From Ruegeria sp. HKCCD7303 (GTDB taxonomy: Bacteria > Pseudomonadota > Alphaproteobacteria > Rhodobacterales > Rhodobacteraceae), in assembly GCF_013111185.1 (NCBI RefSeq), contig NZ_WVRE01000001.1, positions 124,001 through 188,000 on the forward strand: a stretch of DNA of 64,000 nt, written 5' to 3'. Below are positions 6,405 through 63,358 of the stretch, piece after piece. The first letter of the stretch is position 1. The number at the start of each line of letters is the position of its first letter. The notes beneath the pieces were generated by a model that was not told the DNA's origin, ran no database searches, and saw only the letters and a program-made list of their open reading frames with translations. A program made the position numbers and the translations under genes.

Positions 6405-6430
6405 GGCGGGCACCTGATCTTATGCCCGCC
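6405..6430. repeat. Intercistronic hairpin
   Basis: GGCGGGCA at 6405-6412 pairs perfectly with TGCCCGCC at 6423-6430 across a 10-base loop. It lies just after the TAA of the leftward flavoprotein gene and about 140 bases before the enolase-family gene. There is no T-run on the leftward transcript, so an mRNA-stabilising or partly terminating role is likelier than full termination. Confidence 0.6.
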
Positions 6431-6439
6431 GGTTTTGTT

Positions 6440-8917: not shown

Positions 8918-8965
8918 CGCAAGAATTCCTGTTCGAGAGTCGCAGATTTCTATGGACTTCCTATT

Positions 8966-9010
8966 GCCACATATGTACCAGTGTCAATGTCTAACGGCAC
9001 AAATGTACAT
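8966..9010. promoter_or_regulatory. Direct-repeat operator candidate in the divergent promoter
   Basis: Two near-identical 13-base sites, CCACATATGTACC (8967-8979) and GCACAAATGTACA (8997-9009), lie exactly 30 bases apart between the divergent flavoprotein and RpiR genes. A spacing of about three helical turns puts both on one DNA face. ATGTACAT at the second site is itself a palindrome. They are candidate binding sites for the RpiR regulator encoded next to them; binding is inferred. Confidence 0.5.
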
Positions 9011-9023
9011 ACCGAGACTTGCA

Positions 9024-10996: not shown

Positions 10997-11024
10997 AGCC
11001 CAGCACAGTTAAACAACTTATTTG

Positions 11025-11047
11025 TCGGAGGGTGTTTTGCCCTCCGA
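11025..11047. repeat. Hairpin between Rieske oxygenase and aldehyde dehydrogenase genes
   Basis: TCGGAGGG (11025-11032) and CCCTCCGA (11040-11047) form a perfect eight-base stem with a seven-base loop. No T-run follows. The stem buries a strong Shine-Dalgarno-like GGAGGG, and a frame with a TTG start at 11022 runs through it, so it may discourage initiation there or tune expression of the downstream gene. Confidence 0.6.
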
Positions 11048-11066
11048 AGCTTTGGAGATGCGCGAA

Positions 11067-45776: not shown

Positions 45777-46802
45777 ATGCGTAGCAGCAAAACGATACAT
45801 GTGATCTCGGCTCATGCTGAAGGCGAAGTGGGGGATGTGATTGTTGGGGGCGTCAGCCCGCCACCCGGCGACACGGTTTGGGCGCAACGCAGTTTCATTG
45901 CGCAGGACCAAACCCTGCGCAACTTTGTGCTGAACGAACCGCGGGGTGGTGTGTTCCGCCATGTCAATCTGCTGGTGCCCCCGAAACACCCCGAAGCTGA
46001 TGCTGCGTGGATCATCATGGAACCCGAAGACACGCCACCCATGTCCGGATCGAACTCGATCTGCGTTTCGACTGTGTTGCTGGATGGCGGGATCATTCCG
46101 ATGCAGGAACCCGAAACGCACATGGTGCTTGAGGCCCCGGGTGGATTGGTCCGGGTGCGGGCGGAATGCAGCAACGGCAAGGCGCAGCGCATTTTCGTGC
46201 AGAACCTGCCCAGTTTCGCCGACAAACTGTCGGTCCCGCTTGAGGTGCCGGGGATGGGCACGATCATCGTGGATACAGCCTATGGCGGCGACAGTTTCGC
46301 AGTTGTCGACGCAAAGGCGCTGGGATTTGAAATCGCTGAGCACGAAGCCCGCGATATCGCCCGGTTGGGCGTAAAGATCACCAATGCCGCAAATGAACAG
46401 CTTGGGTTTTCGCATCCCGAGAACCCGGATTGGGACCATATCTCGTTCTGCGCCTTTTGCGGCCCGCTCAGTGAAATCGAAACGGGCCTCTCCGGAAAGT
46501 CTGCGGTGGCGATCCAGCCGGGTAAGGTTGACCGCTCGCCCACGGGAACAGCGGTGTCGGCACGGATGGCGCTGATGGCGGCGAAAGGGCTGATGAAGCC
46601 TGGTCAGAGTTTCGAAGCGGTCTCGATCATCGGGTCGCGCTTCACCGGGCGGATCGTCGGCACGGCGCAGGTTGGGGATCGCGCGGCGATCATACCAGAG
46701 ATCAGCGGGCGCGGTTGGATCACTGGTATTCATCAGCACATGCTTGATCCCGACGACCCGTGGCCAGGCGGGTATCGTTTGTCGGATACCTGGGGTGTTT
46801 GA
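45777..46802 (+). CDS. Proline racemase-family trans-3-hydroxyproline dehydratase-like protein
   Basis: A 341-residue paralogue of the epimerase. Both catalytic cysteine positions are changed: the first is Ser90 ([11 protein letters not shown] in place of MCGHxT) and the second is Thr256 ([14 protein letters not shown]). Loss of the second Cys to Thr is the hallmark of trans-3-hydroxy-L-proline dehydratases, while most of those keep the first Cys; the Ser/Thr pair is less usual. It would give delta-1-pyrroline-2-carboxylate, needing a reductase that is not obviously in this operon. The start codon ATG at 45777 follows GAGGAA. Confidence 0.75.
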
Positions 46803-47622: not shown

Positions 47623-48612
47623 TCAAAGTACCACGCGTGTTACGTTTCCTGTCTCTTCCGCCATCCGAGCTGCGACATTGGCGACGGCGAGGTCTTGTAG
47701 TCCGACGCCAGTGCCATCGAAAAGGGTGACTTCGTTTTCGGAAGTTCTTCCGGGATGATCATTGTTGATGACCGCACCTATTGAGGTGATCCGGTCTTCG
47801 GCAAGAGTGCCGTCCTTAATAGCGTGCTGGGCCTCGCCGATGGTGATGGACTGTGCGACCTCGTCGGTGAAGACTGTGGCGGCTGCGACCAGCGCGGCGT
47901 CGACCTCTTGTTTGCCTTTGGTGTCGGTGCCCATGCAGGCTAGGTGGGTGCCGGGTTTGATCCAGTCTTTCATCAGCAGTGGCTCGAAGGCCGAGGTGAT
48001 GGTGATGATGACATCCGCCTGTGCACCCAGGTCCTCTGGGCTGACGGCCTCGAACTCCAGACCCAGCTCGGTTGCGACCGCGCCCAGGCGGGGCAGCATC
48101 TCGGGGTGTGGGTTCCAGGCGACGACTTTTTCAAAGTCGCGCTGCTCGGCGGCGGCGCGCAGCTGGAAGGTCGACTGGTGGCCTGCGCCGACCATGCCCA
48201 GCACCTTGGCATCCTTGCGCGCCAGATGGGCAATCGACACGGCCGAGGATGCAGCGGTGCGCACGGCGGTCAGGTAATTGCCGCCGACCAGTGCCAAGAG
48301 CCGCCCGGTATCGGGGTCGAACAGGAAGACGGTGGACTGGTGATTGGTCAAGCCCTTGTCCATGTTGCCGGGCCAGTAGCCGCCGGATTTGACACCCAGC
48401 ACTTGACCGGCTCGGTCAAAGCCGGATTTGAAGCCATAAAGCGCATCAGCATATCCGATTGCCTCACGAATGACGGGGAAGTTATAGGCGTCGCCACGCG
48501 CCATGGCGGCAAAGACGTCCTGAACCGCGTCGAAGGCCTCGCGGCGTCCGACCAGTTGCTGGCAGAGGTCTTCTCCAACGATCAGCAGGGGTTTGTCTGT
48601 CATATCTTTCAT
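47623..48612 (-). CDS. bhcD: Iminosuccinate reductase (beta-hydroxyaspartate cycle)
   Basis: A 329-residue ornithine cyclodeaminase/mu-crystallin-family protein. The NAD(P)-binding segment is KVLGMVGAGHQSTFQLRAAA near residue 125, and the active-site Lys/Arg region is FGFKSGF and LTAVRTAASSA. In the beta-hydroxyaspartate cycle BhcD reduces iminosuccinate to L-aspartate. The assignment rests on being last of a bhcABCD-ordered run, since the family also includes pyrroline-2-carboxylate reductases. The ATG at 48612 has AAGGAAAAGG upstream; the ATG at 48603 is also possible. The gap to bhcC is 80 bases. Confidence 0.87.
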   Translation of the reverse strand: MKDMTDKPLLIVGEDLCQQLVGRREAFDAVQDVFAAMARGDAYNFPVIREAIGYADALYGFKSGFDRAGQVLGVKSGGYWPGNMDKGLTNHQSTVFLFDPDTGRLLALVGGNYLTAVRTAASSAVSIAHLARKDAKVLGMVGAGHQSTFQLRAAAEQRDFEKVVAWNPHPEMLPRLGAVATELGLEFEAVSPEDLGAQADVIITITSAFEPLLMKDWIKPGTHLACMGTDTKGKQEVDAALVAAATVFTDEVAQSITIGEAQHAIKDGTLAEDRITSIGAVINNDHPGRTSENEVTLFDGTGVGLQDLAVANVAARMAEETGNVTRVVL

Positions 48613-48692
48613 GACCTTTTCCTTGAGCTTTGGGGTGCAGGTCCGGGCGGCAGGGGAAGGGATAACTGCCGCCCGGGACGCATGTGCGGCGG

Positions 48693-49856
48693 CTAGTAAG
48701 CCTTGCCGCGCGCGGAGACCGGCCAAAGCGCTTCAACTTTGCCGTTCCGAACACCCACATACCAATCATGCACATTGGCGGTCGGGTCACAGTGACCGGG
48801 CACCAGATGAAGCTTGTCATTGACCTTGAGAACACCGTCGGGGTCGGCGACCACGCCGTGCTCGTCCGAGCATTTGACATATTCCACATCCGTGCGCCCG
48901 AAGATCACCGGCAGGCCGCTGTCCACGGATTGGGCCTTGAGACCGGCATCCACGATGGCCTTGTCGGCCTTGGCATGGCTCATGACGCTGGTGAGTATGA
49001 AGAAGGCGTTCTCCCACTCTCCCCGGTCGATGCGGTTGCCGTTTTCATCCAGGATGCGGCCATAATCGGCATCCATGAAGGCGTAGGAGCCGCATTGCAG
49101 TTCGTTATACACGCCCGAAGTGCTCTCGAAGTAATAAGACCCGGTACCGCCGCCGCCGACGATGTCACAGTCCAGCCCTTCGGCGGCCAGCCCGCCCACG
49201 GCGTCTTTGACTTGCGCCACGGCGATGTCGATCTTGGCTTTGCGGTCCTCATACAGATCCATGTGCTGCATCGCGCCCTGATAGGCCTGGATGCCCGCAA
49301 ACTTCAGCCCCGGGGCCGCGTCGATGGCCTTGGCAATCGCGATCACTTCTGGCGTGGTGGTTACGCCGCATCGACCCGCGCCGCAGTCGATCTCGACCAG
49401 ACATTCGATCTGGGTGCCGTGGCGCTGCGCGGCCTCGGACAGATCGGCGACATTGTCGATATCGTCAACGCAGCAGATCGTGCGCGCGCCCAGCTTGGGC
49501 ATCCGCGCCAGACGGTCGATCTTGGCCGGGTCGCGCACCTGATTAGACACAAGCACATCCTTGATGCCGCCACGGGCAAAGACCTCGGCCTCCGAGACCT
49601 TTTGGCAGCAAATGCCACAAGCCCCGCCCAGCTCGACCTGCAGCTGCGCCACGTCGACAGATTTGTGCATCTTGCCATGCACCCGGTGACGCATGCCGTG
49701 GGCCTTGGCATAATCGCCCATCTTCTTGATGTTGCGCTCCAGCGCGTCCAGATCCAGCACCAGAGCCGGGGTTTGAATCTCGGATGCGTCCATGCCGATG
49801 GCGGCGGGGATGTCATAGCCAACCTCAAGCTGGTCGATATTCACAGGCATATTCAT
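48693..49856 (-). CDS. bhcC: Beta-hydroxyaspartate aldolase
   Basis: A 387-residue alanine-racemase-fold PLP enzyme of the D-threonine aldolase/DSD1 family. The PLP lysine lies in RVHGKMHKSVD (about Lys62). The C-terminal metal-binding His/Cys pair is in LHLVPGHCDPTANVHDW. The sequence closely matches what I recall of Paracoccus BhcC, including the motif GIQAYQGAMQHMD and GGTGSYYFES, and the length is identical. BhcC joins glyoxylate and glycine into (2R,3S)-beta-hydroxyaspartate. It is 12 bases from bhcB in a tight leftward operon. Confidence 0.93.
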   Translation of the reverse strand: MNMPVNIDQLEVGYDIPAAIGMDASEIQTPALVLDLDALERNIKKMGDYAKAHGMRHRVHGKMHKSVDVAQLQVELGGACGICCQKVSEAEVFARGGIKDVLVSNQVRDPAKIDRLARMPKLGARTICCVDDIDNVADLSEAAQRHGTQIECLVEIDCGAGRCGVTTTPEVIAIAKAIDAAPGLKFAGIQAYQGAMQHMDLYEDRKAKIDIAVAQVKDAVGGLAAEGLDCDIVGGGGTGSYYFESTSGVYNELQCGSYAFMDADYGRILDENGNRIDRGEWENAFFILTSVMSHAKADKAIVDAGLKAQSVDSGLPVIFGRTDVEYVKCSDEHGVVADPDGVLKVNDKLHLVPGHCDPTANVHDWYVGVRNGKVEALWPVSARGKAY

Positions 49857-49868
49857 CTCACTTCCTCC

Positions 49869-50843
49869 TCAGCCCTGGGTCCAGGGCAATTTGTCCAGAT
49901 CCACGTTGCCACCCGTGATGATCACGCCGACGCGTTGGCCTTTGAACACCTCGGGGTGTTTCAGGATCGTCGCCAGCGGAACGGCGCAGCTGGGCTCCAT
50001 CACGATGCGCAGGTATTTCCAGGTGATCTTCATCGCGGCGATGATCTCGTCTTCGCTGGCGGTGTGGATGTCGCGCACAAAGTTCGACACAAAGTGCCAG
50101 GTGTTTTCTTTTAGCGGCACTTTCAGCCCGTCGGCGATGGTGATCGGTGCGTCGTCGGCGATGATGTGACCAGCCTTGAAGCTGCGATAGGCGTCATCGG
50201 CCTGTTCCGGTTCCGAGGCATAGATCTGCACCTCGGGCGCCAGGTTCGACAGGGTCAGGCAGGTGCCCGAGATCATGCCACCGCCGCCGATGGGCGCAAC
50301 CACCGCGTCCAGCCCGTCGGTCTGTTCCAGCAGCTCCGCCGAACAGGTCGCCTGCCCCGCAATCACGCGCGGGTCGTTATACGGGTGCACGAACTCGCCG
50401 CCTGTGCGGGCCTGCACCTCGGCAAACACCACCTCGCGCGAGGTGGTCGAGGGCTCGCATTCGGTGATGATCCCGCCATAGCGGCGCACCGCGTCCTTCT
50501 TGGCCTGCGGTGCCGTGCGCGGCATCACCACGTTGCAGGGAATGCCCCGGCGGCCCGCCGCATAAGACAGGCTGAGCGCATGGTTGCCGGAAGAATGCGT
50601 GCAGACGCCGCGCTCGGCGGCCTCGTCATAAAGGCCAAAGACCGCATTGCAGGCCCCGCGCACTTTGAAAGCGCCCGCCTCCTGAAAGTTCTCGCACTTG
50701 AAGAACAGCTGCGCGCCGGTCAGATCGTCCAGATACTCCGACCGCAACACGGGGGTGCGGTTGATATGGGGTTTGATCCGCTCATGCGCCTCGCGCATAT
50801 CGGCGATGGTCAGGCAATCGGCTGTGGTCATTGCATCCAACAT
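49869..50843 (-). CDS. bhcB: Beta-hydroxyaspartate dehydratase
   Basis: A 324-residue fold-type II PLP enzyme of the serine/threonine dehydratase family. The Schiff-base Lys is about Lys60 in EAGAFKVRGACNA and the phosphate-binding loop is GGGGMISG (about 186-193). BhcB dehydrates beta-hydroxyaspartate to iminosuccinate. The start is the ATG at 50843 with AAGGAGG upstream; longer frames enter bhcA. It sits between bhcA (10-base gap) and bhcC. Confidence 0.92.
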   Translation of the reverse strand: MLDAMTTADCLTIADMREAHERIKPHINRTPVLRSEYLDDLTGAQLFFKCENFQEAGAFKVRGACNAVFGLYDEAAERGVCTHSSGNHALSLSYAAGRRGIPCNVVMPRTAPQAKKDAVRRYGGIITECEPSTTSREVVFAEVQARTGGEFVHPYNDPRVIAGQATCSAELLEQTDGLDAVVAPIGGGGMISGTCLTLSNLAPEVQIYASEPEQADDAYRSFKAGHIIADDAPITIADGLKVPLKENTWHFVSNFVRDIHTASEDEIIAAMKITWKYLRIVMEPSCAVPLATILKHPEVFKGQRVGVIITGGNVDLDKLPWTQG

Positions 50844-50853
50844 CAGAGCCTCC

Positions 50854-52044
50854 TTACGCAGCAGATTGCATGGGTGTGGCACGGCCCGCGCGGAAGTATT
50901 CCTGCGCTGCGGCCACACCGCGGCCCAGCTCGATCGGATAGTCCAGATCGGCCATGGCCATTTCGATCGTGGCCAGACCGGACAGAACCATCACGTCCGT
51001 CAGGCTGCCCAGATGGCCGATGCGGAAGGCCTTGCCGTTCATCTCGCCCAACCCGATGCCAAAGCTGACACCATATGCGTTGAAGGCGTGATCCGTCAGC
51101 GCATTGCTGTCGAACCCGTCGGGCACATAGATCGCGCTGACGGTGTCCGAGTAGAGATCCGGCGACTGCGCCACCAGCTCCAACCCCCAGGCCGAGGTGG
51201 CCTTGCGCACACCTTCGGCGAGACGGAAGTGGCGGGCATAGACATTGTCCAAGCCTTCCTCGAACAGCATTTTCAGGCTTTCGCGCATGCCATAGATCAG
51301 CTGCAGCGGCGGGGTATAGGGAAAGCCGCCCGACGCGTTGGCATTCATCATGTCGCGGAAGTCAAAGAAGGTGCTCGGCAGTTGTGCCGTCTCCATCGCC
51401 GCCAGCGCCTTGGGGCTGACACACAAGATCGCCATTCCGGTGGCCAGCATGAAGCCCTTCTGCGAGCCCGAGACCGCGATATCAACGCCCCAGTCGTCAA
51501 ACGCGAAGGGCATCGAGGCCAGCGAGCTGACGCAATCCACAAACAGCATCGCCGGATGAGTGCTGGCATCCATCGCCCTACGTACCGCTGCAATATCCGA
51601 ACGTACGCCAGTCGCCGTCTCATTATGGGTGACCAAAACCGCCTTGATCTCATGGGCCTTGTCGGCGGCCAGAGCCTCGGCGAACTTGTTCGCCGGAGCA
51701 CCGCTGCCCCATGGGCATTCGATGATCCGGACATCCAGCCCGTGACGCTGACACAGGTCGATCCAGCGATGGCTGAACATGCCATAGCGCGCCACCAGAA
51801 CCGCGTCGCCGGGGCTGAGGGTGTTGGTGATCGACGCCTCCCATCCCCCCGTCCCGCTGGCCGGGAAGGTAATGACCTGACCGCTTGTCGTACCAAATAC
51901 CCGCTTGGTGTGTTCCAACACAGGGGCAAACGTTTCAACAAAATTGGGCGCACGATGGTCTAGCGTCTGAACCTGCATCGCAAGACGCAGACGATCGGGG
52001 ATATTTGTGGGCCCCGGAATAAAAACTGGGTTTTGTTGAGACAT
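50854..52044 (-). CDS. bhcA: L-aspartate:glyoxylate aminotransferase
   Basis: A 396-residue class V (serine-pyruvate-type) aminotransferase. The Schiff-base Lys is Lys196 in VSGSQKGFMLATG, preceded by FVDCVSSLASMPF with the PLP-nitrogen Asp. BhcA makes glycine from glyoxylate using aspartate, closing the cycle that turns two glyoxylate into oxaloacetate. GAGGAGGGG precedes the ATG. A TTGGTAA/TTACCAA palindrome lies right upstream. First gene of the bhcABCD operon, divergent from bhcR. Confidence 0.92.
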   Translation of the reverse strand: MSQQNPVFIPGPTNIPDRLRLAMQVQTLDHRAPNFVETFAPVLEHTKRVFGTTSGQVITFPASGTGGWEASITNTLSPGDAVLVARYGMFSHRWIDLCQRHGLDVRIIECPWGSGAPANKFAEALAADKAHEIKAVLVTHNETATGVRSDIAAVRRAMDASTHPAMLFVDCVSSLASMPFAFDDWGVDIAVSGSQKGFMLATGMAILCVSPKALAAMETAQLPSTFFDFRDMMNANASGGFPYTPPLQLIYGMRESLKMLFEEGLDNVYARHFRLAEGVRKATSAWGLELVAQSPDLYSDTVSAIYVPDGFDSNALTDHAFNAYGVSFGIGLGEMNGKAFRIGHLGSLTDVMVLSGLATIEMAMADLDYPIELGRGVAAAQEYFRAGRATPMQSAA

Positions 52045-52060
52045 GGCTTGCCCCTCCTCT

Positions 52061-52081
52061 TTGGTAATATGATGTTACCAA
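52061..52081. promoter_or_regulatory. Palindrome next to the bhcA ribosome site
   Basis: TTGGTAA (52061-52067) and its exact complement TTACCAA (52075-52081) flank seven bases, starting 16 bases upstream of the bhcA ATG and overlapping the likely 5' leader. It is a candidate operator or leader stem for bhcA. Confidence 0.5.
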
Positions 52082-52096
52082 TGCTTGGGGTTTGCA

Positions 52097-52206
52097 ATTT
52101 TCTCGAAAATGTTTTTCACATAGCGAAAAAATTACCTAGCGCATTGAAACACATGGGTAAGATCGTTTTTCACTTTGGAGAGGAAATTTTTCAAATTTGA
52201 AAAATT
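52097..52206. promoter_or_regulatory. Three TTTTC...GAAAA palindromes, candidate BhcR operators
   Basis: Between bhcA and bhcR lie ATTTTC-TC-GAAAAT (52097-52110), TTTTTC-7-GAAAAA (52112-52130) and a perfect 22-base palindrome at 52185-52206 whose left half is AATTTTTCAAA. All share the TTTTC/GAAAA arms. IclR regulators bind such palindromes, and in Paracoccus BhcR binds the bhc promoter and is released by glyoxylate. The third lies 49 bases before the bhcR start. Confidence 0.6.
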
Positions 52207-52254
52207 CTGCAGCGAAGCCTAAAAGCGACCTGTGGACCACATAGGAAAATCCCC

Positions 52255-53070
52255 ATGGAGAATCACAAAAAGCCGCGCGGCAGGCCCAAGTCACTGTTCA
52301 AGGAAAGTTCAGCCGGAACACTGCAATCCCTCGACCGGGCTTTGGAGACATTGACGACCCTGGCGACGCTGGAACGCTGTACGCTGAGCGACCTCAGTCG
52401 CGAGACGGGCGTGCCAACGGCTACGACGCATCGCATACTGACGACGCTGTCCAACCGCGGCTATGTCAGTTTTGATGAGCAACGCCAGGAATGGATGATC
52501 GGGATCGAGGCGTATCGGACTGGTGCGTCTTATCTGAACCGCAACAGCGTGGTTGAGATTGGTCGACCGATCCTGCGCAGGCTTATGCGCGACTCGGGTG
52601 AGACGGCGAATATGGCAATGCCAGATGGAAGCCATGTGGTATTCGTCAATCAGATCGAAACCAGCAATCCGATCAGGGCCTTTTTCCCGCCCGGCGCGCG
52701 GACGCCGATGTACGCGTCGGGGACCGGAAAGGCATTGCTGGCCGAGCTTAGCCAGGATGCCTTGGGCAGGCTGACGTCGGACCTTACGTTTGAGCCTTAC
52801 ACAGATCGCACGCATAGATCGACGGCGTCTCTGTTTGAAGATCTTACACTGATCCGACAACGCGGTTGGTCCTTTGATGATGAGGAGCGTTACGAGGGAA
52901 TGTCCTGCACCGGAGCGGCAATTCAAAACCAATTTGGCGTTGCATGTGCGGGTATTTCCGTCTCTGGCCCCACTGCGCGGATCAACAAAGCGAACGCTGC
53001 TTACTTCGGCGAAATGGTCCTTGAGGCGGCGCACGAAATTACATTGGCAATCGGTGGTCAGCCGCGCTGA
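52255..53070 (+). CDS. bhcR: IclR-family regulator of the beta-hydroxyaspartate cycle
   Basis: A 271-residue IclR protein. The N-terminal winged HTH (residues about 25-85) includes LERCTLSDLSRETGVPTATTHRILTTLSNRGYVSFD. The C-terminal GAF-like effector domain includes PMYASGTGKALLAELS and the typical RQRGWSFDDEERYEGMSCTGAAI. It is divergent from bhcA as in known bhc clusters, and BhcR there responds to glyoxylate. AGGAAAA precedes the ATG. The N-terminal residues are rich in Lys/Arg. Confidence 0.9.
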   Translation: MENHKKPRGRPKSLFKESSAGTLQSLDRALETLTTLATLERCTLSDLSRETGVPTATTHRILTTLSNRGYVSFDEQRQEWMIGIEAYRTGASYLNRNSVVEIGRPILRRLMRDSGETANMAMPDGSHVVFVNQIETSNPIRAFFPPGARTPMYASGTGKALLAELSQDALGRLTSDLTFEPYTDRTHRSTASLFEDLTLIRQRGWSFDDEERYEGMSCTGAAIQNQFGVACAGISVSGPTARINKANAAYFGEMVLEAAHEITLAIGGQPR

Positions 53071-53194: not shown

Positions 53195-54103
53195 TCATGC
53201 CCAATTCAGTGCCAGATGCGCGCTGAACTGACGGACGGCAGAGGTATCGAAACGCGCATGCGGGATCACGCAAACATAGTCCTTTTTCATTTTCAAGGCA
53301 TGTTTCGACGGGATAACGAGTAGCCCCGATGCAAGGTCCGTTTTGGCCAGGACGGAAGGCACCAGCGCGATACCGGCCCCCCGCTTGGCTGTTGCGATGG
53401 CGAAGGTCAAATCGTTGATCGTCAAACCCGCATCAGAAAACGGCGTTGCATCAGACTCGACCTGGCGCCTCCAATCCGACCAAAGTGGCTCGCTTGCATA
53501 GTTTGAGCCCCATTTGTTGTGGATGAATTTGTTGTCCGGGACATTTGTCAGTGCTTCATCCATGTTGGGATATGCTTCACAGAACCAGGGGGCGCAGACC
53601 GGTATCGCAACATCTGAAAACAGGCGAGTTTCCCGGTAACCCGGATAAAGCGCCGAGCCATAGGTCAGACGTATGTCGATGGCTTCACGTTCAAAGTCGA
53701 TCGGGTCTTCCTGAACGCGAACATCCAGCGATATTCCGGTTTCTTCGGTAAACGTGATGGCTTTGGGCAGAAACCACAACTCAGCCAATGCCGGCAGCAC
53801 GCTGACAACCAACTGCCGGGTTGACGTATCGCTGCGTACGATCCGAGCGGCTTCAGACATTTCCTCAAAGGCACGAGCGAGCTTGGGGTACATCATTTCA
53901 CCCGCATCCGTCAGCGAAATCCGGTTGCCTTTGCGGACGAACAGTTTTTTGCCGAGATGATCCTCAAGGGTTTTGATCTGTAAACTGATCGCGGCCGAGC
54001 TGACGCTCAGTTCTTTCCCAGCCAATACGAAACTGCCACATCGGGCTGCGGCTTCAAAGGCGCGCAACGCGGTCAGAGGCGGAAGAGTGTGCCCATAGCC
54101 CAT
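53195..54103 (-). CDS. LysR-family transcriptional regulator (GcvA-like)
   Basis: A 302-residue LysR regulator: HTH at about residues 8-66 (PPLTALRAFEAAARCGSFVLAGKELSVSS, then AISLQIKTLEDHLGKKLFVRKG), effector domain from RQLVVSVLPALAELWF. The start is the ATG at 54103; a TTG at 54124 has the better ribosome site (AGGA) and would add seven residues. It is divergent from the oxygenase/DddP-like/B12 operon and is its probable regulator. A TTCA/TGAA inverted repeat lies in between. Confidence 0.88.
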   Translation of the reverse strand: MGYGHTLPPLTALRAFEAAARCGSFVLAGKELSVSSAAISLQIKTLEDHLGKKLFVRKGNRISLTDAGEMMYPKLARAFEEMSEAARIVRSDTSTRQLVVSVLPALAELWFLPKAITFTEETGISLDVRVQEDPIDFEREAIDIRLTYGSALYPGYRETRLFSDVAIPVCAPWFCEAYPNMDEALTNVPDNKFIHNKWGSNYASEPLWSDWRRQVESDATPFSDAGLTINDLTFAIATAKRGAGIALVPSVLAKTDLASGLLVIPSKHALKMKKDYVCVIPHARFDTSAVRQFSAHLALNWA

Positions 54104-54156
54104 AGTAAAACTTATGATACCCAATAATTTTCCTGGTTTCTTTTGTCATAAACTGA

Positions 54157-54184: not shown

Positions 54185-54976
54185 ATGAAGCACTTGCTGG
54201 ATCTTGAAAAATACCCTTTGCACAGACCTGACAGCCGGGAATACGAGAAACTGGTGAAAAAGTGTCGGGCAGACCTGGCATCTGACGGCATGTTCAACCT
54301 GCCAGGATTTTTTAAGCCTGGCATCGCACAGCAAGCTGCAGATGCGGCGAAACCCGCGTTGGACACAGTCTCATTCAGGCATGCGCGTAAACACAACGTC
54401 TACTTCAAAGATGATATGCCCGGCATCGACGATGCGCATCCGGCGATGGTCAAATCGCAGACTGTCAACCATACACTGTGCGCCGATCAGCTAGAGGGCA
54501 ACCCGGTGATCGATGTATACGAATGGCAACCCTTCGCCGACTTTCTGGCTGCAACAATGGGCAAAGAAAAGCTGTATCAGATGGATGACCCCATGGCGCG
54601 TGTGAACGTGCAGGCAACACGGGATGGCGAAGGGTTGAACTGGCATTTCGACCGCTCGGAATTCACGACGACGATCTTGTTGCAGGCCCCTGAGGTGGGC
54701 GGTGAGCTTGAGTATCGCAAAGACCTGCGCACGCCGGATGACCAAAACTATGAAGGTGTTGTCGCTGTTCTGGCCGGGAAGGACCCGGAAGTAAAACGGA
54801 TCATGCCGTTGCCCGGCGCGCTTAATGTGTTCCGTGGGGTGAATACACCGCACCGTGTTGTACCTGTTCAAGGCGACACCGAACGCGTGATCGCGATTTT
54901 CTCGTTTTATGAGACCCCTGGCGTTTATTTTTCCGCCGAAGAACAAATTGGTTTCTATGGGCGTTCCGTGTCATGA
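54185..54976 (+). CDS. HalD/BesD-like Fe(II)/2-oxoglutarate oxygenase with a hydroxylase-type HxD
   Basis: A 263-residue protein resembling the HalD/BesD amino-acid halogenase family. The iron site reads His154-Phe-Asp156 in LNWHFDRSEF, with distal His223 in NTPHRVVPV and a 2-oxoglutarate-binding Arg candidate at 234. Halogenases have Gly in place of the Asp, leaving room for chloride; here Asp is present, so hydroxylation is expected. Spacing from the first to the distal His (69) is near that of BesD. Substrate is likely a free amino acid or betaine. AAGGAGGA precedes the ATG, and the stop overlaps the M24 gene by four bases. Confidence 0.75.
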   Translation: MKHLLDLEKYPLHRPDSREYEKLVKKCRADLASDGMFNLPGFFKPGIAQQAADAAKPALDTVSFRHARKHNVYFKDDMPGIDDAHPAMVKSQTVNHTLCADQLEGNPVIDVYEWQPFADFLAATMGKEKLYQMDDPMARVNVQATRDGEGLNWHFDRSEFTTTILLQAPEVGGELEYRKDLRTPDDQNYEGVVAVLAGKDPEVKRIMPLPGALNVFRGVNTPHRVVPVQGDTERVIAIFSFYETPGVYFSAEEQIGFYGRSVS

Positions 54977-56232
54977 CTCAGGTGCGCCCTGCCTTCAAGG
55001 ATGAGCGCAAGCTAACCTACCTGAACCGCGACGGTGCGGATAAGCCGCTGATCAGCCCAGTCCCACAGGCCACTCTGGATGCGGCCCGTGCCTATCGATT
55101 GGCCCGATTGCGACAGAAGATGGCACAGCATGATGTGGCAGGTCTGTTGCTCTATGATCCGATTAATATCCGCTATGCGGTCGACAGCTCGAACATGCAG
55201 ATTTGGACGGGCCACAATCCGGTTCGTTATGCGATGATCCTGGCGGGCGGCCCAGCAATCCTGTGGGAGTTCAAGGGCTGTGAACACCTGAACAATGGTT
55301 TGCCCGGTATCGACGAAATTCGAACCGCCGTGTCATGGATGTTCATGACAAAGGGCGACAAAGCCCCTGTTGGCGTTGAAGGTTGGGCTGATGAAATAGC
55401 TGACGTAATCCGCCAACATGGTGGTGGCAATCGCCGCTTTGCTGCAGACAGGCTGGACGGCCCGGGACTTCACGCGCTTCAAAAGCGCGGTCTAACTTTC
55501 GTGGAAGGGGGTGAATTGACGGAGCGCGCGCGCTCGATCAAGTCCCCTGACGAAATCGAACTGATGCGTTGGACCATTCGCGTCTGCGAAGCTGGGATGG
55601 CACGTATCTACGAACATTCAGTTCCCGGCGTAACCGAACGCGAGCTATGGGCCCATCTTCATTTTGAGAATGCACGTTCGGGCGGAGATTGGCTTGAAAC
55701 CAAGCTTTTGACCTGCGGTCCTAATACAAACCCTTGGTACAAAGAATGTTCGGACCGGGTATGCCGATTGGGTGAAATGATATCGTTTGATACAGATATG
55801 ATTGGCCCGTACGGTTACTGCGCGGACCTCAGCCGCAGTTGGACCTGTGGTTATACCCCGATGACGGATACCCAGCGGCGGATCTATGCGACGGCTCTCG
55901 ATCAGATCTACCATAACCTGGATGTGTTGAAGCCGGGGATGACATTTGCCGAGTTTAACGAAAGAAGCTGGCGCATTCCTGAACGGCATGTTGACTATCG
56001 ATATTCGCTGGCGGCCCATGGCGTGGGCATGGCAGATGAATGGCCTGTCATCCCGTTGCATGTCGATTTCGATGAGACCGCCATGTCGGGAGTAATCGAG
56101 CCGGGAATGGTCGTCTGCGTCGAAAGTCTTGTTGGGGAGGAGGGCTCGGAAAGTGTCAAACTGGAAACTCAGGTGCTGGTAACCGAAACAGGGATTGAAC
56201 GGTTGGACAGTTTCCCTTGGGAGAGTATCTAG
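54973..56232 (+). CDS. DddP-like M24-family enzyme
   Basis: A 419-residue creatinase/prolidase-fold protein. All six metal ligands of the DMSP lyase DddP appear to be present: Asp273, Asp275, Asp285, His349, Glu384 and Glu398. From recall, DddP of Ruegeria lacuscaerulensis has 295, 297, 307, 371, 406 and 421, a constant offset of 22 (23 for the last). The recalled catalytic Asp377 and Tyr366 fall on Asp355 and Tyr344. Other shared segments are LLLYDPINIRYAVDSSNMQ and TCGPNTNPWYKECSDRV. DddP makes DMS and acrylate from DMSP, but related M24 proteins cleave other compounds. Translationally coupled to the oxygenase. Confidence 0.72.
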   Translation: MTQVRPAFKDERKLTYLNRDGADKPLISPVPQATLDAARAYRLARLRQKMAQHDVAGLLLYDPINIRYAVDSSNMQIWTGHNPVRYAMILAGGPAILWEFKGCEHLNNGLPGIDEIRTAVSWMFMTKGDKAPVGVEGWADEIADVIRQHGGGNRRFAADRLDGPGLHALQKRGLTFVEGGELTERARSIKSPDEIELMRWTIRVCEAGMARIYEHSVPGVTERELWAHLHFENARSGGDWLETKLLTCGPNTNPWYKECSDRVCRLGEMISFDTDMIGPYGYCADLSRSWTCGYTPMTDTQRRIYATALDQIYHNLDVLKPGMTFAEFNERSWRIPERHVDYRYSLAAHGVGMADEWPVIPLHVDFDETAMSGVIEPGMVVCVESLVGEEGSESVKLETQVLVTETGIERLDSFPWESI

Positions 56233-56303
56233 GTGCCTTCGTCACCGGAAATCGCTGGGGTTAATAGACTTGCCTGCTGCACTGAATTGGCCATTGTGGC
56301 GAA

Positions 56304-58100
56304 ATGGACGATCGAAACCTCAGAATTGACAGAGCGGCGCTTCTGCCAGAGCAGGACCTGATCAGCGGCCCAGAGCTGTTGAGCTGTGGTAAGAAAATGG
56401 TGTCGGACTGGCGTGTCGGCAGCAGTGCTTTCCAGGTCGCGACCGGGTACAAGAACGAGATTGAATACAAGAAGTCCATGATCCGGTCCGGGCAGGTTAT
56501 GCAGCATGCGCATCTTGGATTTCGGGACGTGTCCCACAGTATTGATGCCATCCGAAGGGTGTATGATACCTGCGCCCAGCGCGATGCACGGGTTGATCGC
56601 TTTGGTATGTGTCTGGATTGGTCGATGGGGTTTCCGAGACATCAAAGAACCGAAAACGTGCGTGGAACAGGTGTTATCCTAAAGGATGCGGACGCGTTTG
56701 CGCGTCTTACACAAGCCAGCCCCGCGGCGATGCATTTCGGTGATTTCATGCTGGGGTTTCCGGCAGCTTTGGAAAACACATGCGCTGCACTTGCGGCTGG
56801 GGCCACAACGATCGGCAATCTGGGGCAGTATTTCACGTTTCGTCTGCCGGGCTACCAAGACGATATAGAGACCACAAAAGCCACCGTTAAGGCGCTTGGC
56901 CTGATTGCCGCGCAACCTGTTCCTGTATTGGTGCACTCAAATCTGGATGACGGATACGCCGCAATATTCGAGGACCTGACCTCGGTCTTGGGTCAGGCTT
57001 TGCTTGAGAAGCACATTGTAACCGGGCTGATCGGCGCGCCTTATGCTGTTTGCTATGGCCATCACTTTACCGAACCCCTGACGCGTCTGGCATTTCAACG
57101 CGCCTTGGCGCAGATCAGCGATGGGGTTCCGGGGTCGCAGATCTATGGCGCAACGGTGCTTTACAAAGGATCGCGTGCCGAAAACTATGCAGGGCTGTCC
57201 TCGTATCTTTTGTCCGATATTGTGGCGCAGCGGTTGCGACCAAGCGGGCACGCGCTGAACCCGGTTCCAGTAAGCGAGAATGAGCGCATCCCCGACGTGA
57301 CCGAGATTTGCGACGCACAATGTCATTTGAGCAGGTTGACCGAGCTGGCAGAGGGGTATCTGCCCCTGTTTGACATGACTGAGATTGATCGGATCAGCGA
57401 TATGCTGCTACGCGAAGGTCAGCGTTTTGCAGATCGGGTTCTTGCTGGATTGTCAAAAGGTGGCATCAATACAGACGATCCCTTTGAGATGCTGCTGGCC
57501 CTGCGTCGCATCGGTGGGCGCGCTTTGGAGCAAGCCTTTGGCGGAGGTGAAGAAAGGCCAGATGCGCCGCGTCGCAGAACCCCCATTGTAAGCGCTACAA
57601 CATATCGCGAACTAGAAGAAGCCGCCGCGCGTTTCATGTCCTCTGAAGCCGGTCGGGCAGTGGCCCATTTGGCCAAGTCTTCTGCCCGTATTCTGACTGC
57701 AACCACAGATGTGCACGAGCATGGGAAGATGCTTTTGGATCTGGTGTTCGGCAAAGCAGGATTTGTTGTCATAGATGGTGGCGTTTCAAGCGACCCGGAT
57801 CACATTGTGGCCTTGGTCAAACAAAACGCGGCCGATGCCATTGCACTTAGCACGTATAATGGCGTGGCGTTGCGGTACTCAAAAACACTGTTGCAAAAGT
57901 TGGAAGAGGCCGGGTTGGATGTGCCGGTTCTGATCGGCGGTCGGTTGAACGAGATACCAGAAGGCACGAATACAAGCCTGCCTGTGGATGTGACCGATCA
58001 GCTGACCGAGATCGGGGTCATTGCCTGCACTAATCTGGAGGCTGCCGCTGAGGCGCTGGAGAATGTGCTTGCCCGCAGCATACCAGACCGTGGATTGTAA
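56304..58100 (+). CDS. Cobalamin-binding mutase-like protein (barrel plus B12 domain in one chain)
   Basis: A 598-residue protein. The C-terminal B12 domain has DVHEHG (469-474), matching the DxHxxG motif whose His replaces dimethylbenzimidazole, then GGVSSDP (492-498) and VLIGGRL (543-548). The N-terminal 430 residues look like the barrel of glutamate-mutase-type enzymes (MHFGDFMLGFPAALENTCAALAAGATTIGNLGQYF). Classical glutamate mutase splits these between two subunits. The reaction is unknown; a carbon-skeleton or amino-group shift on the product of the two upstream enzymes is possible. No good ribosome site is seen before the ATG; 71 bases separate it from the M24 gene. Confidence 0.7.
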   Translation: MDDRNLRIDRAALLPEQDLISGPELLSCGKKMVSDWRVGSSAFQVATGYKNEIEYKKSMIRSGQVMQHAHLGFRDVSHSIDAIRRVYDTCAQRDARVDRFGMCLDWSMGFPRHQRTENVRGTGVILKDADAFARLTQASPAAMHFGDFMLGFPAALENTCAALAAGATTIGNLGQYFTFRLPGYQDDIETTKATVKALGLIAAQPVPVLVHSNLDDGYAAIFEDLTSVLGQALLEKHIVTGLIGAPYAVCYGHHFTEPLTRLAFQRALAQISDGVPGSQIYGATVLYKGSRAENYAGLSSYLLSDIVAQRLRPSGHALNPVPVSENERIPDVTEICDAQCHLSRLTELAEGYLPLFDMTEIDRISDMLLREGQRFADRVLAGLSKGGINTDDPFEMLLALRRIGGRALEQAFGGGEERPDAPRRRTPIVSATTYRELEEAAARFMSSEAGRAVAHLAKSSARILTATTDVHEHGKMLLDLVFGKAGFVVIDGGVSSDPDHIVALVKQNAADAIALSTYNGVALRYSKTLLQKLEEAGLDVPVLIGGRLNEIPEGTNTSLPVDVTDQLTEIGVIACTNLEAAAEALENVLARSIPDRGL

Positions 58101-58236: not shown

Positions 58237-59343
58237 ATGGCTGACTATATCGTACACGCTTTGGCTGCCAGCCAGGTCTCGATCACTGGAGGTGAAAGCC
58301 TGAGCGGTATCACCCAGGGTGATGGGTCAAACCTTGTCGGTCAATTTATAACGATCGGCAATGGCCCGCTGACGGATCTAAACGTGTCAGACGCCGGATC
58401 GGACTCCGATTTTGACGACAATGACGGGAACCAGCGCTTAAACGGTGCTCAGAGCTTTGATGGTACGACCTATGCCGATGGGACGCGTATCGAGGCTGAA
58501 TACAGCATCACGCTGCGTGACAACAGCACCGGGCAAACCTATCAGGTTCTTGGTGTCAACATTAACAATTCCTCTCCTTCGTTTGGCACCACCGAAGGTG
58601 TGGCCTTTGTTGGTAGTTTCCCACCGCGCGGAGTGCCGCTTGAGGTTATCTCATCCGCAGAAGGGCCAGGGTCTTCGGGACAGCCGCCTGTCGATGAGAG
58701 CAGTCTGGTACCTTGTTTCACCGGGTCAACATTGATTTCAACGACGACCGGGCCAGAGCGGGTCGAACAGATTACACTGTCGGATCTGGTCCTTACACGT
58801 CAACATGGACCTCAACCTGTGCGATGGATTGGCAGACGGCGGGTCGCTGAATCAGAGCTTCATGCCAACCCAAAGCTATACCCGGTTCGAATTCTTGCCG
58901 GGTCTCTGGGAAACGGATTTCCGCAGAGGGATCTGTTGATATCGCGGCAGCATCGAATGCTTGTCCGCTCGTCCATTGCCGAACGCATGTTTGGCGTCCC
59001 AGAGGTTCTTGTCCCGGCTATCAAATTGACAAGCCTTCCTGGGGTTTACGTGGACAAGACTGTCCAGGAAGTCGAATACTTCCACCTGCTGTTTGACCGG
59101 CACGAGATCATCTTTGCTGAAGGCGCGCCGTCAGAGAGCCTGTTTACCGGGCCCGAAGCGCTCAAGGCGATTAGCGCTGAGGCGCGAGAAGAGATTTTCG
59201 TGCTGTTCCCAGAACTGAAACAAACGGATGTGTTGCCAGAGCCTGCCGGGTTCATCCCGACGGGCAAACAGCAACGGAAACTCATTGACCGTCATGTCAA
59301 GAACGAGAAACCCCTTGTGTCATTAGCTGACATCGCACTTTAG
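58237..59343 (+). CDS. Hint (Hedgehog/intein) domain-containing protein
   Basis: A 368-residue protein common in Rhodobacterales. Residues 1-155 form a beta-rich, Asp/Gly-rich N-terminal region. The Hint domain starts at Cys160 in VPCFTGSTLISTTTGPERVEQI and continues with VLTRQHGPQPVRWIGRRRV and LISRQHRMLVRSS. Cys at the start and a C-terminal His-containing block suggest possible self-processing, but there is no clear C-terminal Asn for splicing. Most relatives are secreted through C-terminal or unclear signals. GAGGGG precedes the ATG. Its stop lies 11 bases from the convergent LysR stop. Confidence 0.75.
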   Translation: MADYIVHALAASQVSITGGESLSGITQGDGSNLVGQFITIGNGPLTDLNVSDAGSDSDFDDNDGNQRLNGAQSFDGTTYADGTRIEAEYSITLRDNSTGQTYQVLGVNINNSSPSFGTTEGVAFVGSFPPRGVPLEVISSAEGPGSSGQPPVDESSLVPCFTGSTLISTTTGPERVEQITLSDLVLTRQHGPQPVRWIGRRRVAESELHANPKLYPVRILAGSLGNGFPQRDLLISRQHRMLVRSSIAERMFGVPEVLVPAIKLTSLPGVYVDKTVQEVEYFHLLFDRHEIIFAEGAPSESLFTGPEALKAISAEAREEIFVLFPELKQTDVLPEPAGFIPTGKQQRKLIDRHVKNEKPLVSLADIAL

Positions 59344-60387: not shown

Positions 60388-61764
60388 ATGAACGTTGACG
60401 CCCGACGCGCGATTGAACAGGACAAGGCGCATCACGTCCATCCGCAGTCTAATTTGCGTCAGCATGCCGAGAATGGCCCGACCATGATCACCCATGGTAA
60501 GGGCGTCTTCATCTACGACAGCGAAGGGCATGAGATCATCGACGGGTTTTCCGGGCTGGGTTGCGTCTCGTTGGGTTACCATAACGAGCGCCTATCCAAC
60601 GCGGCCAAACGCCAGATGGATGTTCTGCCTTTTGCACCGACCTTCTACAACCGTTCGCACCCACGTGTTGCGGAATTGGGTGAGCGCCTGATTGGTATGG
60701 CTCCGGTCGACATGGACCGGGTAATGTTCCAGTGTTCCGGGTCCGAGGCGAACGATACTGCGATCAAGCTGCTGTGGTACGCCAACACCGCCAAAGGCGA
60801 GCCCAATCGCCGTAAGATCATTGGCCGCGTACGCGGTTACCATGGCAACACGATAGCCACCGTGTCCTTGTCGGGCCAACCGCATATGCATGCCAAATTT
60901 GGCCTGCCGCTGTCCGAATTCAAGCACACCGAATTGCCAAACTACTACCGCTTCCACATCGACGGTGAGAGCGAAGAAGAGTTCTCGGCCAGAATGGCGG
61001 CCAAGTTTCAAGAGCTGATTTTAGCGGAAGGCCCTGAAACCGTGGCGGCATTCTTTGCCGAACCGGCCATCTCAGGCGGTGGTGCACTGATGCCGCCCGA
61101 AGGCTATTGGCGAGAAATGCAGGCGGTTCTACGTAAATACGACATCAAGTTCCTGGCCGACGAGGTCGTTTGCGGCTTTGGTCGCACCGGCAATATGTGG
61201 GGCTCGCAGACCTGGGGGTTAGAGCCTGACATGATCTCGTGTGCCAAAGCGCTGTCGGCGGCGTTTTTCCCGATCTCGGCGCTGATGTTCAAGGATGAGA
61301 TTTACGCCGACATGATGAAGAACTCGGATGAGGTTGGCACGTTCGGTCACGGCTACACATATGCCGGACACCCGGTAGGTGCTGCCGTCGGGCTTGAGGC
61401 GTTGGATATATACGACGAGATGGATCTGGTCGGCCATGTCCGCAGGGTCTCGACCCGGTTCCTGGAAAAATGCCACGCTATGGCGGATCACCCGCTTGTG
61501 GCCGAGGTGCGGGGTGTTGGCCTGTTCTGCGGTTTCGAACTGATGAAGGATGCCAAAACCCGCGAACCTTTCGATCCCTCTTGGAAAGTGGGCGAACTTG
61601 TGCAGAACTTTGCCCATGATCGGGGTCTGTACTTGCGGGCGATTGGCGACCGGATGAGCTTTATGCCGCCGCTGATCATCAATGAGGATGAGATTGATGT
61701 TGCGACTGAACGGTTCAAGGGCGCGTTGGACGACGCGTGGGCCGTGGTCCGCACCAAGATCTGA
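60388..61764 (+). CDS. Class III (omega) aminotransferase
   Basis: A 458-residue PLP enzyme. Landmarks are QCSGSEANDTAIKL (about 115-128), GRVRGYHGNT, Asp258 in FLADEVVCGFGRTG and the Schiff-base Lys287 in DMISCAKALSAAFFP. The substrate would be a terminal or omega amine such as a beta- or gamma-amino acid or a polyamine. The aldehyde dehydrogenase gene follows by 109 bases, as expected if the transamination product is an aldehyde. A different paralogue from the transaminase at 3772 (clearly distinct sequence). Confidence 0.87.
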   Translation: MNVDARRAIEQDKAHHVHPQSNLRQHAENGPTMITHGKGVFIYDSEGHEIIDGFSGLGCVSLGYHNERLSNAAKRQMDVLPFAPTFYNRSHPRVAELGERLIGMAPVDMDRVMFQCSGSEANDTAIKLLWYANTAKGEPNRRKIIGRVRGYHGNTIATVSLSGQPHMHAKFGLPLSEFKHTELPNYYRFHIDGESEEEFSARMAAKFQELILAEGPETVAAFFAEPAISGGGALMPPEGYWREMQAVLRKYDIKFLADEVVCGFGRTGNMWGSQTWGLEPDMISCAKALSAAFFPISALMFKDEIYADMMKNSDEVGTFGHGYTYAGHPVGAAVGLEALDIYDEMDLVGHVRRVSTRFLEKCHAMADHPLVAEVRGVGLFCGFELMKDAKTREPFDPSWKVGELVQNFAHDRGLYLRAIGDRMSFMPPLIINEDEIDVATERFKGALDDAWAVVRTKI

Positions 61765-61873
61765 TTTGCTTTAGGGTCAGATCCAAGCTCTCACCCGGTC
61801 GCTGCGCCGCTGAACTCCCTCCAGGCGGCGCGACTTATTCTGAAATACCTCTAGCCTGCCAAGGAGAACAGGG

Positions 61874-63358
61874 ATGACGACACACCTGGAACCGAAACTG
61901 CCCGAAGCGGGTTTGGCCGGAAGCTATATCAACGGGGCATGGCACTGGCCCGAAGGGCGACTAGTGGTCGAAAATCCCTCGCGTCGCGCACCCATCTGCG
62001 AGGTTGGTCGCGGCACGTCAACCGAGGTCGACTTGGCCGTCGAAGCCGCCCGTGCCGCGCTCCCAGCGTGGCGCGTTTTGGCGGCAAGCGAGCGTGGCAA
62101 ACTGTTGACCGAACTCGGCCGTCGCCTGGAAGAAAATGTCGAAGAAGTCGCCCGCGTGCTGGCTGCTGAAAGCGGGAATGCGATCAAAACCCAGTCACGC
62201 GGAGAGGCATTGGGCGCGGCGGGCGTTCTGAAGTATTATGGTGGTGTGGCGGTTGAGCAAAAGGGCGAAACCCTGCCGCTCGGCCCGGGACTGCTGAGCT
62301 ATTCGACGCGCGAGCCACATGGGGTTGTGGGCTCGATCATCCCCTGGAATTCTCCATTGCAGCTTGGTGCGGTGAAGATTTCGATGGCGCTTGCCACCGG
62401 CAACTGCCTGGTGTTGAAACCTGCCGAAGATGCGCCCCTGGCAATCCTGAAACTGGCTGAACTTGCGGATGGCTTGTTTCCACCGGGTGTTTTTAATGTG
62501 GTCACTGGGTTGGGAGAGGAAGCTGGTGCAGCGCTTGCTTCGCATCCGGGTATCGACAAGGTGTCCTTTACCGGTTCAAGCGATGTGGGCAAGTTAATTG
62601 GCCATGCCACGGCTGATCGCATTGCAAAACTTACTCTGGAACTGGGCGGGAAATCCCCGACCATCGTCTTCCCTGACGCCATCGCCGATGGCCGTCTGGA
62701 CAGCACCGCGCAGCAGGTGGCAAACGCGATGCGGTTCATGCGGCAGGGCCAAAGTTGTACCGCCGGATCGCGCCTGTTTGTGCACAAGGATATCTGGGAT
62801 GAGTTGATGCCGAAGGTCGCCGAGAAATCGGCAGCTTTGAAAGTGGGTGATGCGCTGGATCCAGACGTGGATATGGGCGCGGTGGTTAACGCGGAACGCT
62901 ATGGTGAAATCCGCGCCTATGTGGCCGAAGCTGAGGCAGAAGGGGCCACCTTCCTGATCGGCGAAACGCCAGCGGAAGACCCGGCGGGTTTCTGCCCGAA
63001 CCCCACCATCGTCACCGGCGTTGATAACAATTGGCGCATCTCCCGTGAAGAGGTGTTCGGCCCGGTGATGGTCGCGATCCCCTTCGAGACCGAAGAGGAG
63101 GTGATCGCTATGGCCAATGACACTCACTATGGTCTTGCAGCCTTCCTGTTCACCCATGACGTCAGCCGCATAACGCGCCTGACGCGCGCTATCGATGCAG
63201 GCTGGATTCAGGTAAATCAGGGCGGCGGGCAAATCCCTGGGATGTCTTACGGGGGCACCAAGCAGTCGGGTATGGGCAGCGAATACTCGATTGAGGGAGC
63301 GCTAGAGGCATATACATACCGCAAATGCGTCACAATCAATATCGAGGGCGGCGCGTGA
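61874..63358 (+). CDS. NAD(P)-dependent aldehyde dehydrogenase
   Basis: A 494-residue aldehyde dehydrogenase: IIPWNSPLQLG, Glu257 in LELGGKSPTIVF, nucleophile about Cys295 in RQGQSCTAGSR, and C-terminal YGGTKQSGMGSEY. It probably oxidises the aldehyde from the transaminase encoded just before it. AAGGAGAAC precedes the ATG. Its stop overlaps the GTG start of the SelA-like gene by four bases. A succinate- or malonate-semialdehyde-like substrate is possible. Confidence 0.87.
   Translation: MTTHLEPKLPEAGLAGSYINGAWHWPEGRLVVENPSRRAPICEVGRGTSTEVDLAVEAARAALPAWRVLAASERGKLLTELGRRLEENVEEVARVLAAESGNAIKTQSRGEALGAAGVLKYYGGVAVEQKGETLPLGPGLLSYSTREPHGVVGSIIPWNSPLQLGAVKISMALATGNCLVLKPAEDAPLAILKLAELADGLFPPGVFNVVTGLGEEAGAALASHPGIDKVSFTGSSDVGKLIGHATADRIAKLTLELGGKSPTIVFPDAIADGRLDSTAQQVANAMRFMRQGQSCTAGSRLFVHKDIWDELMPKVAEKSAALKVGDALDPDVDMGAVVNAERYGEIRAYVAEAEAEGATFLIGETPAEDPAGFCPNPTIVTGVDNNWRISREEVFGPVMVAIPFETEEEVIAMANDTHYGLAAFLFTHDVSRITRLTRAIDAGWIQVNQGGGQIPGMSYGGTKQSGMGSEYSIEGALEAYTYRKCVTINIEGGA

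Follow-up and report, generated by a model that had tools for sequence, protein, structure and literature searches.

A conserved LysR-oxygenase-M24 gene cassette of Rhodobacteraceae with a possible role in betaine catabolism

A 64,000-nucleotide stretch of the Ruegeria sp. HKCCD7303 genome (contig NZ_WVRE01000001.1, positions 124,001 to 188,000; hereafter the window, in whose own positions its genes are numbered) carries a cassette encoding a LysR-type regulator, an Fe(II)/2-oxoglutarate oxygenase (hereafter OXY) and a metalloenzyme of the M24 family (hereafter M24) that resembles DddP, a lyase of dimethylsulfoniopropionate (DMSP). LysR-OXY-M24 is a conserved, self-contained unit found at varied genomic positions. 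Its likeliest role, to which we assign a probability of about one half, is the catabolism of a methylated-onium carboxylate, most likely of the quaternary-ammonium betaine type; we infer the substrate class, the order of the steps and the elimination chemistry. No account of an OXY-M24 cassette appears in the ranked listings and abstract openings consulted from the open-licence literature. In the window a third gene follows M24 and encodes a fused, cobalamin-dependent mutase-like protein (hereafter the B12 protein).

The window belongs to a Rhodobacteraceae-type genome of 4.62 Mb (G000; other genomes and loci are given by G and L numbers). The coding regions of OXY (54185-54976, + strand, 263 residues) and M24 (54973-56232, + strand, 419 residues) overlap by four bases, ATGA. 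Divergent from them is the LysR gene (53195-54124, - strand; PF00126 and PF03466), whose product falls in a GcvA-like group and scores 222 bits with the NCBIfam GcvA model, short of its cut-off of 288. The B12 gene (56304-58100, + strand, 598 residues) begins 71 bases behind M24 with no terminator-like site listed between them, a spacing that suggests it lies on the OXY-M24 transcript. A cobalamin riboswitch was sought in the window and gave no Rfam match at gathering scores. The original prediction for this locus had described OXY, M24 and the B12 protein as one operon under a single divergent LysR, and all four genes were confirmed at their positions.

Conservation of the cassette was followed in 54 genomes of the genus and in 295 of the family, the latter about one per genus. 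Cassette-type M24 (at least 72% identity) is present in 10 of the 54 genus genomes and is adjoined by OXY in nine; from the tenth (G341) the search recovered just 74 C-terminal residues of OXY. In the family sample, M24 matches at E 1e-125 or better occur in 17 of 295 genomes (18 loci), 14 of these with OXY. The four-base overlap, noted before in the window, recurs in 17 of the 22 loci that hold both genes. The remaining five have either an intervening gene (a lyase in L146, a fatty-acid-desaturase-like gene in L150) or a longer gap (L147, L148, and L158). The divergent regulator has a homologue in 21 of 22 loci (detected by tblastn in L151 and L152), with none found near the pair in L148. The OXY and M24 trees mirror each other across the 22 loci (r 0.72, 0 of 2000 label shuffles as high), a correlation to which shared descent contributes. 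A wider set came from a scan in which nine aligned cassette M24 proteins served as the query against a genome collection; the best 80 of 543 relatives were retained as the 80-locus set and searched with seed proteins by tblastn. These loci are mostly from Rhodobacteraceae, with some from Hyphomicrobiales, Rhodospirillales and gammaproteobacterial metagenome-assembled genomes (MAGs). OXY is present in 64 of them, always on the same strand and within 1.5 kb upstream of M24, and LysR in 50. Neighbouring proteins were clustered with cut-offs of 38-40% identity and 60% coverage, and about 70 of them were annotated; the open reading frame (ORF) calls used here over-extend some starts and miss some genes, and the search was repeated with tblastn where this was important.

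OXY belongs to the HalD/BesD family, scoring 43.8 bits with the Pfam model PF23169 (HalD; cut-off 26). Its AlphaFold model (predicted local distance difference test, pLDDT, 92.7) matches HalB (Z 21.1), BesD (20.6), and the BesD-homologous hydroxylase 7jsd (20.5) in what amounts to a tie; together with HalA and HalD these form a group at Z 20-21, followed by matches at Z 16-18. Identity to the top solved members is 12-20%. In contrast to the halogenases, OXY has Asp where these have Gly: its iron site reads HFD...H as against HWG in HalB, so that it is of the hydroxylase type. The halogenase pattern HxG, in which no carboxylate binds the iron, is thus absent, and D156 is found in 52 of 52 full-length relatives aligned, as are H154, H223, and R234. 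OXY is therefore predicted to be a hydroxylase-type enzyme with an HxD...H triad (H154, D156, H223; R234). Paralogues more remote from it, with about 28-38% identity, are widespread in the genus, a match at E 1e-20 being present in 53 of 54 genomes.

M24 (PF00557, 105 bits) has its best matches among solved structures in the DddP chains 4b28 and 4rzy, with similarity over residues 34-418 at 327-336 bits. The metal ligands of DddP are Asp295, Asp297, Asp307, His371, Glu406, and Glu421, with Tyr366 and Asp377 as catalytic candidates, according to the published account (PMC4108388). Alignment to 4rzy places these eight residues at D273, D275, D285, H349, E384, E398, Y344, and D355 of M24. All are kept in the 72 relatives aligned, save that D285 is kept in 71 (Asn in one); the other eight of the 80 loci yielded no M24 ORF within the length range. 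With the NCBIfam DddP equivalog model NF043017, M24 scores 400.1 bits against a cut-off of 600, and by this test it is DddP-like, not DddP. Another copy in the same genome (L175) scores 921.5 bits and is above the cut-off. The earlier description of M24 as a DddP-type enzyme thus holds for its similarity and its metal and catalytic residues, but not at the level of the family model. Relatives of M24 at E 1e-60 are present in 54 of 54 genus genomes, and the cassette copy is therefore an extra one; a viral scan for M24 relatives found none. DddP chemistry is plausible for M24 given the residues retained, and its substrate is probably something other than DMSP.

Could the cassette nevertheless serve a DMSP- or sulfonium-type pathway, with M24 a diverged DMSP lyase and OXY modifying a DMSP-like compound? 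The intact set of metal and catalytic residues and the first place of DddP among solved structures speak for this. However, M24 lies 200 bits below the DddP cut-off and is coupled to a 2-oxoglutarate oxygenase, the genome has its separate high-scoring DddP, and the cassette M24 is additional to relatives that every sampled genome of the genus possesses. No sulfonium-specific gene was recognized among the annotated neighbours, in an annotation that did not include a search for dmdA or acuI. We consider a sulfonium pathway improbable.

Betaine genes, whose co-occurrence with the operon had been proposed as a check, do occur beside it in a minority of loci. Within the 80-locus set MttB is found in nine loci, dimethylglycine dehydrogenase (DMGDH)-like genes in nine and Rieske genes in seven, some of them inside the operon. 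The arrangements include M24-MttB-flavoprotein-SBP (substrate-binding protein) in L160 and L161, MttB-Ldh-OXY-Rieske-SBP in a Mesorhizobium locus (L033), M24 with an EamA transporter, a DMGDH-like gene and MttB in L192, and OXY-Rieske-M24 in L238, L240, and L252; the MttB gene of L146 contains two stops. In having such neighbours for OXY or M24, a minority of loci resemble the betaine demethylation clusters built from MttB, DMGDH-like and GbcA-like Rieske enzymes, although we know of no such cluster with a DddP-like M24 or a HalD-type oxygenase. Proline betaine was considered as a substrate and rejected, since each sign of it comes from a single locus: L105 has a proline racemase family gene, and L033 has Ldh and Rieske genes.

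A second group of neighbours concerns histidine. Downstream of M24, and on its strand, eight of the 80 loci have a homologue of histidine ammonia-lyase; four of the eight come from Rhodospirillales or other Proteobacteria MAGs. The lyase gene is in an operon with OXY and M24 both in L147, where it comes after M24, and in L146, where it stands between the two and overlaps OXY by four bases, its frame being broken into two ORFs. Histidine ammonia-lyases carry an A-S-G triplet that forms the 4-methylideneimidazole-5-one (MIO) group. In all seven unbroken lyases of the 80-locus set this triplet is incomplete, with AS-D or AA-D in place of ASG-D; the lyases of L170 and L171 are likewise without the MIO glycine, and that of L172 is also without ASG there. 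The protein is similar to ergothionase 6s7j over nearly its full length (residues 12-476, 125 bits) and to a histidine ammonia-lyase in two pieces (127 bits), and it scores far below the HutH model cut-offs. Ergothionase is itself described as lacking MIO (PMC13405746). The lyase of the cassette relatives differs from these enzymes in its setting, behind OXY-M24 or beside hutU.

Among the 295 family genomes the lyase is rare, with matches at E 1e-70 in five, and four of these five also carry cassette-type M24, which 17 of the 295 have (P 3.7e-5). When the two genomes in which it was first seen (G009 and G086) are removed, cassette M24 is present in two of three lyase-bearing genomes against 15 of 293 (P 0.007); the two are G141 and G270, and in both the lyase lies away from the cassette. 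The odds of a betaine-type role were left unchanged by the latter P value because the eight lyase loci of the 80-locus set bear on the same point. Elsewhere, L172 has the lyase between MttB and Rieske genes with a DMGDH-like gene just upstream. In L171 (G151) a hut operon with a normal, ASG-bearing HutH has in addition a MIO-less lyase (9647-11128), placed directly after hutU; this lyase is a candidate hercynine lyase, and the E 1e-125 family search found no cassette-type M24 in G151. A DUF1415 gene also lies near the lyase in L147 (6408-6962) and L170 (7598-8128), the two copies being 81% identical. The cassette itself is adjoined by hutU or a hut operon in six of the 80 loci: in L188-L191 and L193 a complete hut operon meets M24 tail-to-tail through its hutU gene, and in L209 the hut operon is on the other side of the cassette, next to LysR. 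At L148 and L171 HutU is an ordinary urocanate hydratase, scoring above the cut-off for that enzyme and below that for thiourocanate, so that hercynine or histidine is a likelier substrate there than ergothioneine.

These observations suggest how the cassette may work. OXY would oxidize the substrate, at a carbon or at an N-methyl group, and M24, with the di-metal site and Tyr/Asp pair of DddP, would then cleave the resulting compound in an elimination resembling that of DddP. Other enzymes may feed or extend the route in some lineages: the ergothionase-like MIO-less lyase, from which trimethylamine release would be expected, those of the urocanate pathway (hut), or the N-demethylating MttB, DMGDH-like, and Rieske proteins. 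The original prediction had proposed hydroxylation and M24 cleavage of a sulfonium or betaine-type amino acid, followed by a cobalamin-dependent rearrangement. The betaine part of this proposal agrees with the MttB, DMGDH-like, Rieske, lyase and hut genes in a minority of loci, whereas the rearrangement is not supported by the comparison of loci described below. Among possible substrates, a histidine betaine such as hercynine best fits the lyase and hut evidence and is the most specific lead. OXY-M24 might in that case form an undescribed two-enzyme route for hercynine, or for ergothioneine after sulfur handling, in which OXY activates the compound and M24 expels the amine beside the MIO-less lyase and hut. 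So narrow a formulation is doubtful, if somewhat better placed than the other specific routes considered here.

Several points weigh against this account. The amine of hercynine is on the alpha carbon, and DddP removes a beta leaving group after loss of the alpha proton, so that it is not self-evident how M24 would act on a histidine betaine. At E 1e-70 the lyase is absent from the window genome. Within the flanks, 72 of 80 loci lack the lyase and 74 lack a hut operon; both may be add-ons and not the core route. Of the six loci with hut beside the cassette, five belong to syntenic relatives, which reduces six cases to two arrangements. The 80-locus set overlaps the genus and family samples, comprises related genomes, near-duplicates (L238/L240) and some short contigs, and includes the loci that supplied the lyase and hut seeds (L184, L188). 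MttB is common in these genomes, with 4-15 copies in ten cassette-bearing genomes searched and 0, 5, and 5 in three others, making its nearness to the cassette weak evidence, and several Rieske and DMGDH-like matches have an identity of only 26-37%. Nor is the unit always intact: M24 occurs without OXY in 16 of 80 loci and in L160 and L161, and OXY without M24 or LysR in the genus loci L112-L117 and in L163 and L164. Of these genus loci, L112-L114 and L116 have flanking genes in common with L111, where the cassette is present, and L115 and L117 likewise with L107 and L110, two further cassette loci; tblastn gave no match for M24 or LysR in L112-L117, though other strains carry the whole cassette at these two neighbourhoods.

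The hut operons also fit a different substrate, a histidine-type or other amino acid derivative without a quaternary amine (N-methyl-histidine or a dipeptide), which M24 would hydrolyse in the manner of ectoine hydrolase, creatinase or prolidase. Adjacent hut genes in 6 of 80 loci are compatible with this, and the relatives of M24 do include ectoine hydrolase and creatinase. Yet M24 scores 41 bits with the NCBIfam ectoine hydrolase model against 400 for DddP and keeps the DddP Tyr/Asp pair in 72 of 72 relatives, and a quaternary amine is favoured by the MIO-less lyase and demethylase genes found nearby. Hydrolysis of a non-quaternary compound accordingly seems unlikely, and a betaine-type carboxylate is preferred.

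The B12 protein requires separate treatment. PF02310 covers residues 462-548 (44.9 bits, cut-off 32.1) and is the sole Pfam match at E 0.001; the N-terminal part has none. Its AlphaFold model (pLDDT 89.4) indicates a fused mutase-like protein with the glutamate mutase fold. Residues 18-474 align with the E chain of glutamate mutase (Z 28.3, root-mean-square deviation 3.4 over 370 residues, about 11% identity) and residues 458-592 with the sigma subunit (Z 15.6 over 128 residues); lysine 5,6-aminomutase is the next match after the E chain (Z 26.3). The motif D-x-H-x-x-G, which we take to be the cobalamin motif, has D469 and H471 invariant and G474 nearly so. The TIM-barrel and cobalamin-domain folds are thus shared with glutamate mutase (methylaspartate mutase E and S subunits), but here the two parts are fused in one chain and PF06368 is missing: no match to it was found at E 0.001 in the B12 protein, nor any in its own genome, and profile comparison of the N-terminal part with two PF06368 proteins gave an hhalign probability of 0.3%, from shallow alignments.

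Does this protein catalyse a third step? As originally envisaged, OXY would hydroxylate an amino-acid-like betaine, M24 would cleave it and the B12 protein would rearrange the product. The gene lies close behind M24 both here and, at 86 bases, in G333 (L103), the spacer in the window has no terminator-like site listed, and the protein is predicted to have a complete mutase fold with a conserved cobalamin motif. However, these are the only two of the 22 OXY-M24 loci in which B12 joins the cassette, and tblastn found it in none of the 80-locus set; of the three genes expected to travel together, the tightly coupled OXY-M24 pair does so and the B12 gene does not. Full-length homologues are present in 11 of 295 family genomes and 4 of 54 genus genomes. 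Three of the 11 hold cassette-type M24 (P 0.02), or 2 of 10 without the focal genome (P 0.10). Elsewhere the neighbours are different, namely a ProC-like reductase, sulfatase and formylglycine-generating-enzyme (FGE) genes, or other genes. A shared three-step pathway is therefore given little credence, and the B12 protein is probably a separate family that neighbours the cassette locally in one small lineage and is not a core part of it. Co-transcription and a lineage-specific role are possible.

Of 20 loci with B12 homologues, the seed's own included, eight have a ProC-like (pyrroline-5-carboxylate reductase-like) gene in their 10 kb flanks (L034, L036, L042, L044, L045, L046, L047, and L048), and the rhizobial loci among these also have a GntR regulator and an FAD (flavin adenine dinucleotide) oxidoreductase; a separate amino-acid mutase pathway is possible there. 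In L038 (8266-12391) and L039 (7667-10896) the homologue is beside a sulfatase, an FGE homologue and a GntR regulator. Eight plasmid records contain a B12 homologue at 80% coverage or more; in the four examined it is annotated as cobalamin-dependent or hypothetical protein.

The cassette of the window stands directly beside genes of the beta-hydroxyaspartate cycle (47623-53070). BhcA (50854-52044, - strand, 721 bits, cut-off 650) and BhcB (49869-50918, - strand, 572 bits, cut-off 550) are above their model cut-offs, a bhcR-like gene (52255-53070, + strand, 329 bits) is below the BhcR cut-off of 350, and bhcC (48693-49856, - strand) and bhcD (47623-48726, - strand) are presumed from position. 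In G333 (L103) four ORFs separate these genes from the cassette. A link between the two systems was considered and set aside: of the loci examined, only the window and G333 have a bhcA homologue by the cassette, and 0 of the 80-locus set. Behind the B12 gene and before the next LysR is a Hint-domain protein (58237-59343, PF13403).

Other genes of the window also point to amino-acid catabolism. A group at 6.4-12.5 kb has Rieske, DMGDH-like and aldehyde dehydrogenase genes, all below NCBIfam cut-offs for named enzymes. Across 5164-12521 and 45777-46802 are a cis-3-hydroxyproline-dehydratase-like protein (335 bits, cut-off 500), a GbcA-like Rieske protein (154 bits, cut-off 670), a DMGDH-like flavoprotein, an aldehyde dehydrogenase and a proline racemase family protein. 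A class-III aminotransferase and an aldehyde dehydrogenase (Pfam; 60388-63358, + strand) begin a cluster that runs past the right edge of the window to two DMGDH-like genes and MttB (L173); a homologous cluster is about 9 kb from the G334 cassette (L176), on the cassette's other side. Besides the two DMGDH-like genes and MttB, the L173 (1326-12715) and L176 clusters contain D-glutamate-cyclase-like, class-V aminotransferase and UPF0261 genes and a 430-residue protein without a Pfam match, and they possibly specify a pathway for an N-methyl amino acid.

Much of the exchange between algae and marine bacteria runs through betaines and sulfonium compounds, and counts of dddP genes in metagenomes serve as a proxy for dimethyl sulfide production. 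A conserved DddP paralogue coupled to a 2-oxoglutarate oxygenase and accompanied, in some genomes, by betaine demethylases or an ergothionase-like lyase would imply another function for some DddP-like genes. A second uncharacterized family is that of the fused B12 mutase-like protein. The cassette would add an enzyme pair to the turnover of betaines or histidine betaines and, should the histidine-betaine route prove true, DddP-type elimination in marine bacteria would serve the catabolism of quaternary amines in addition to that of sulfonium compounds.

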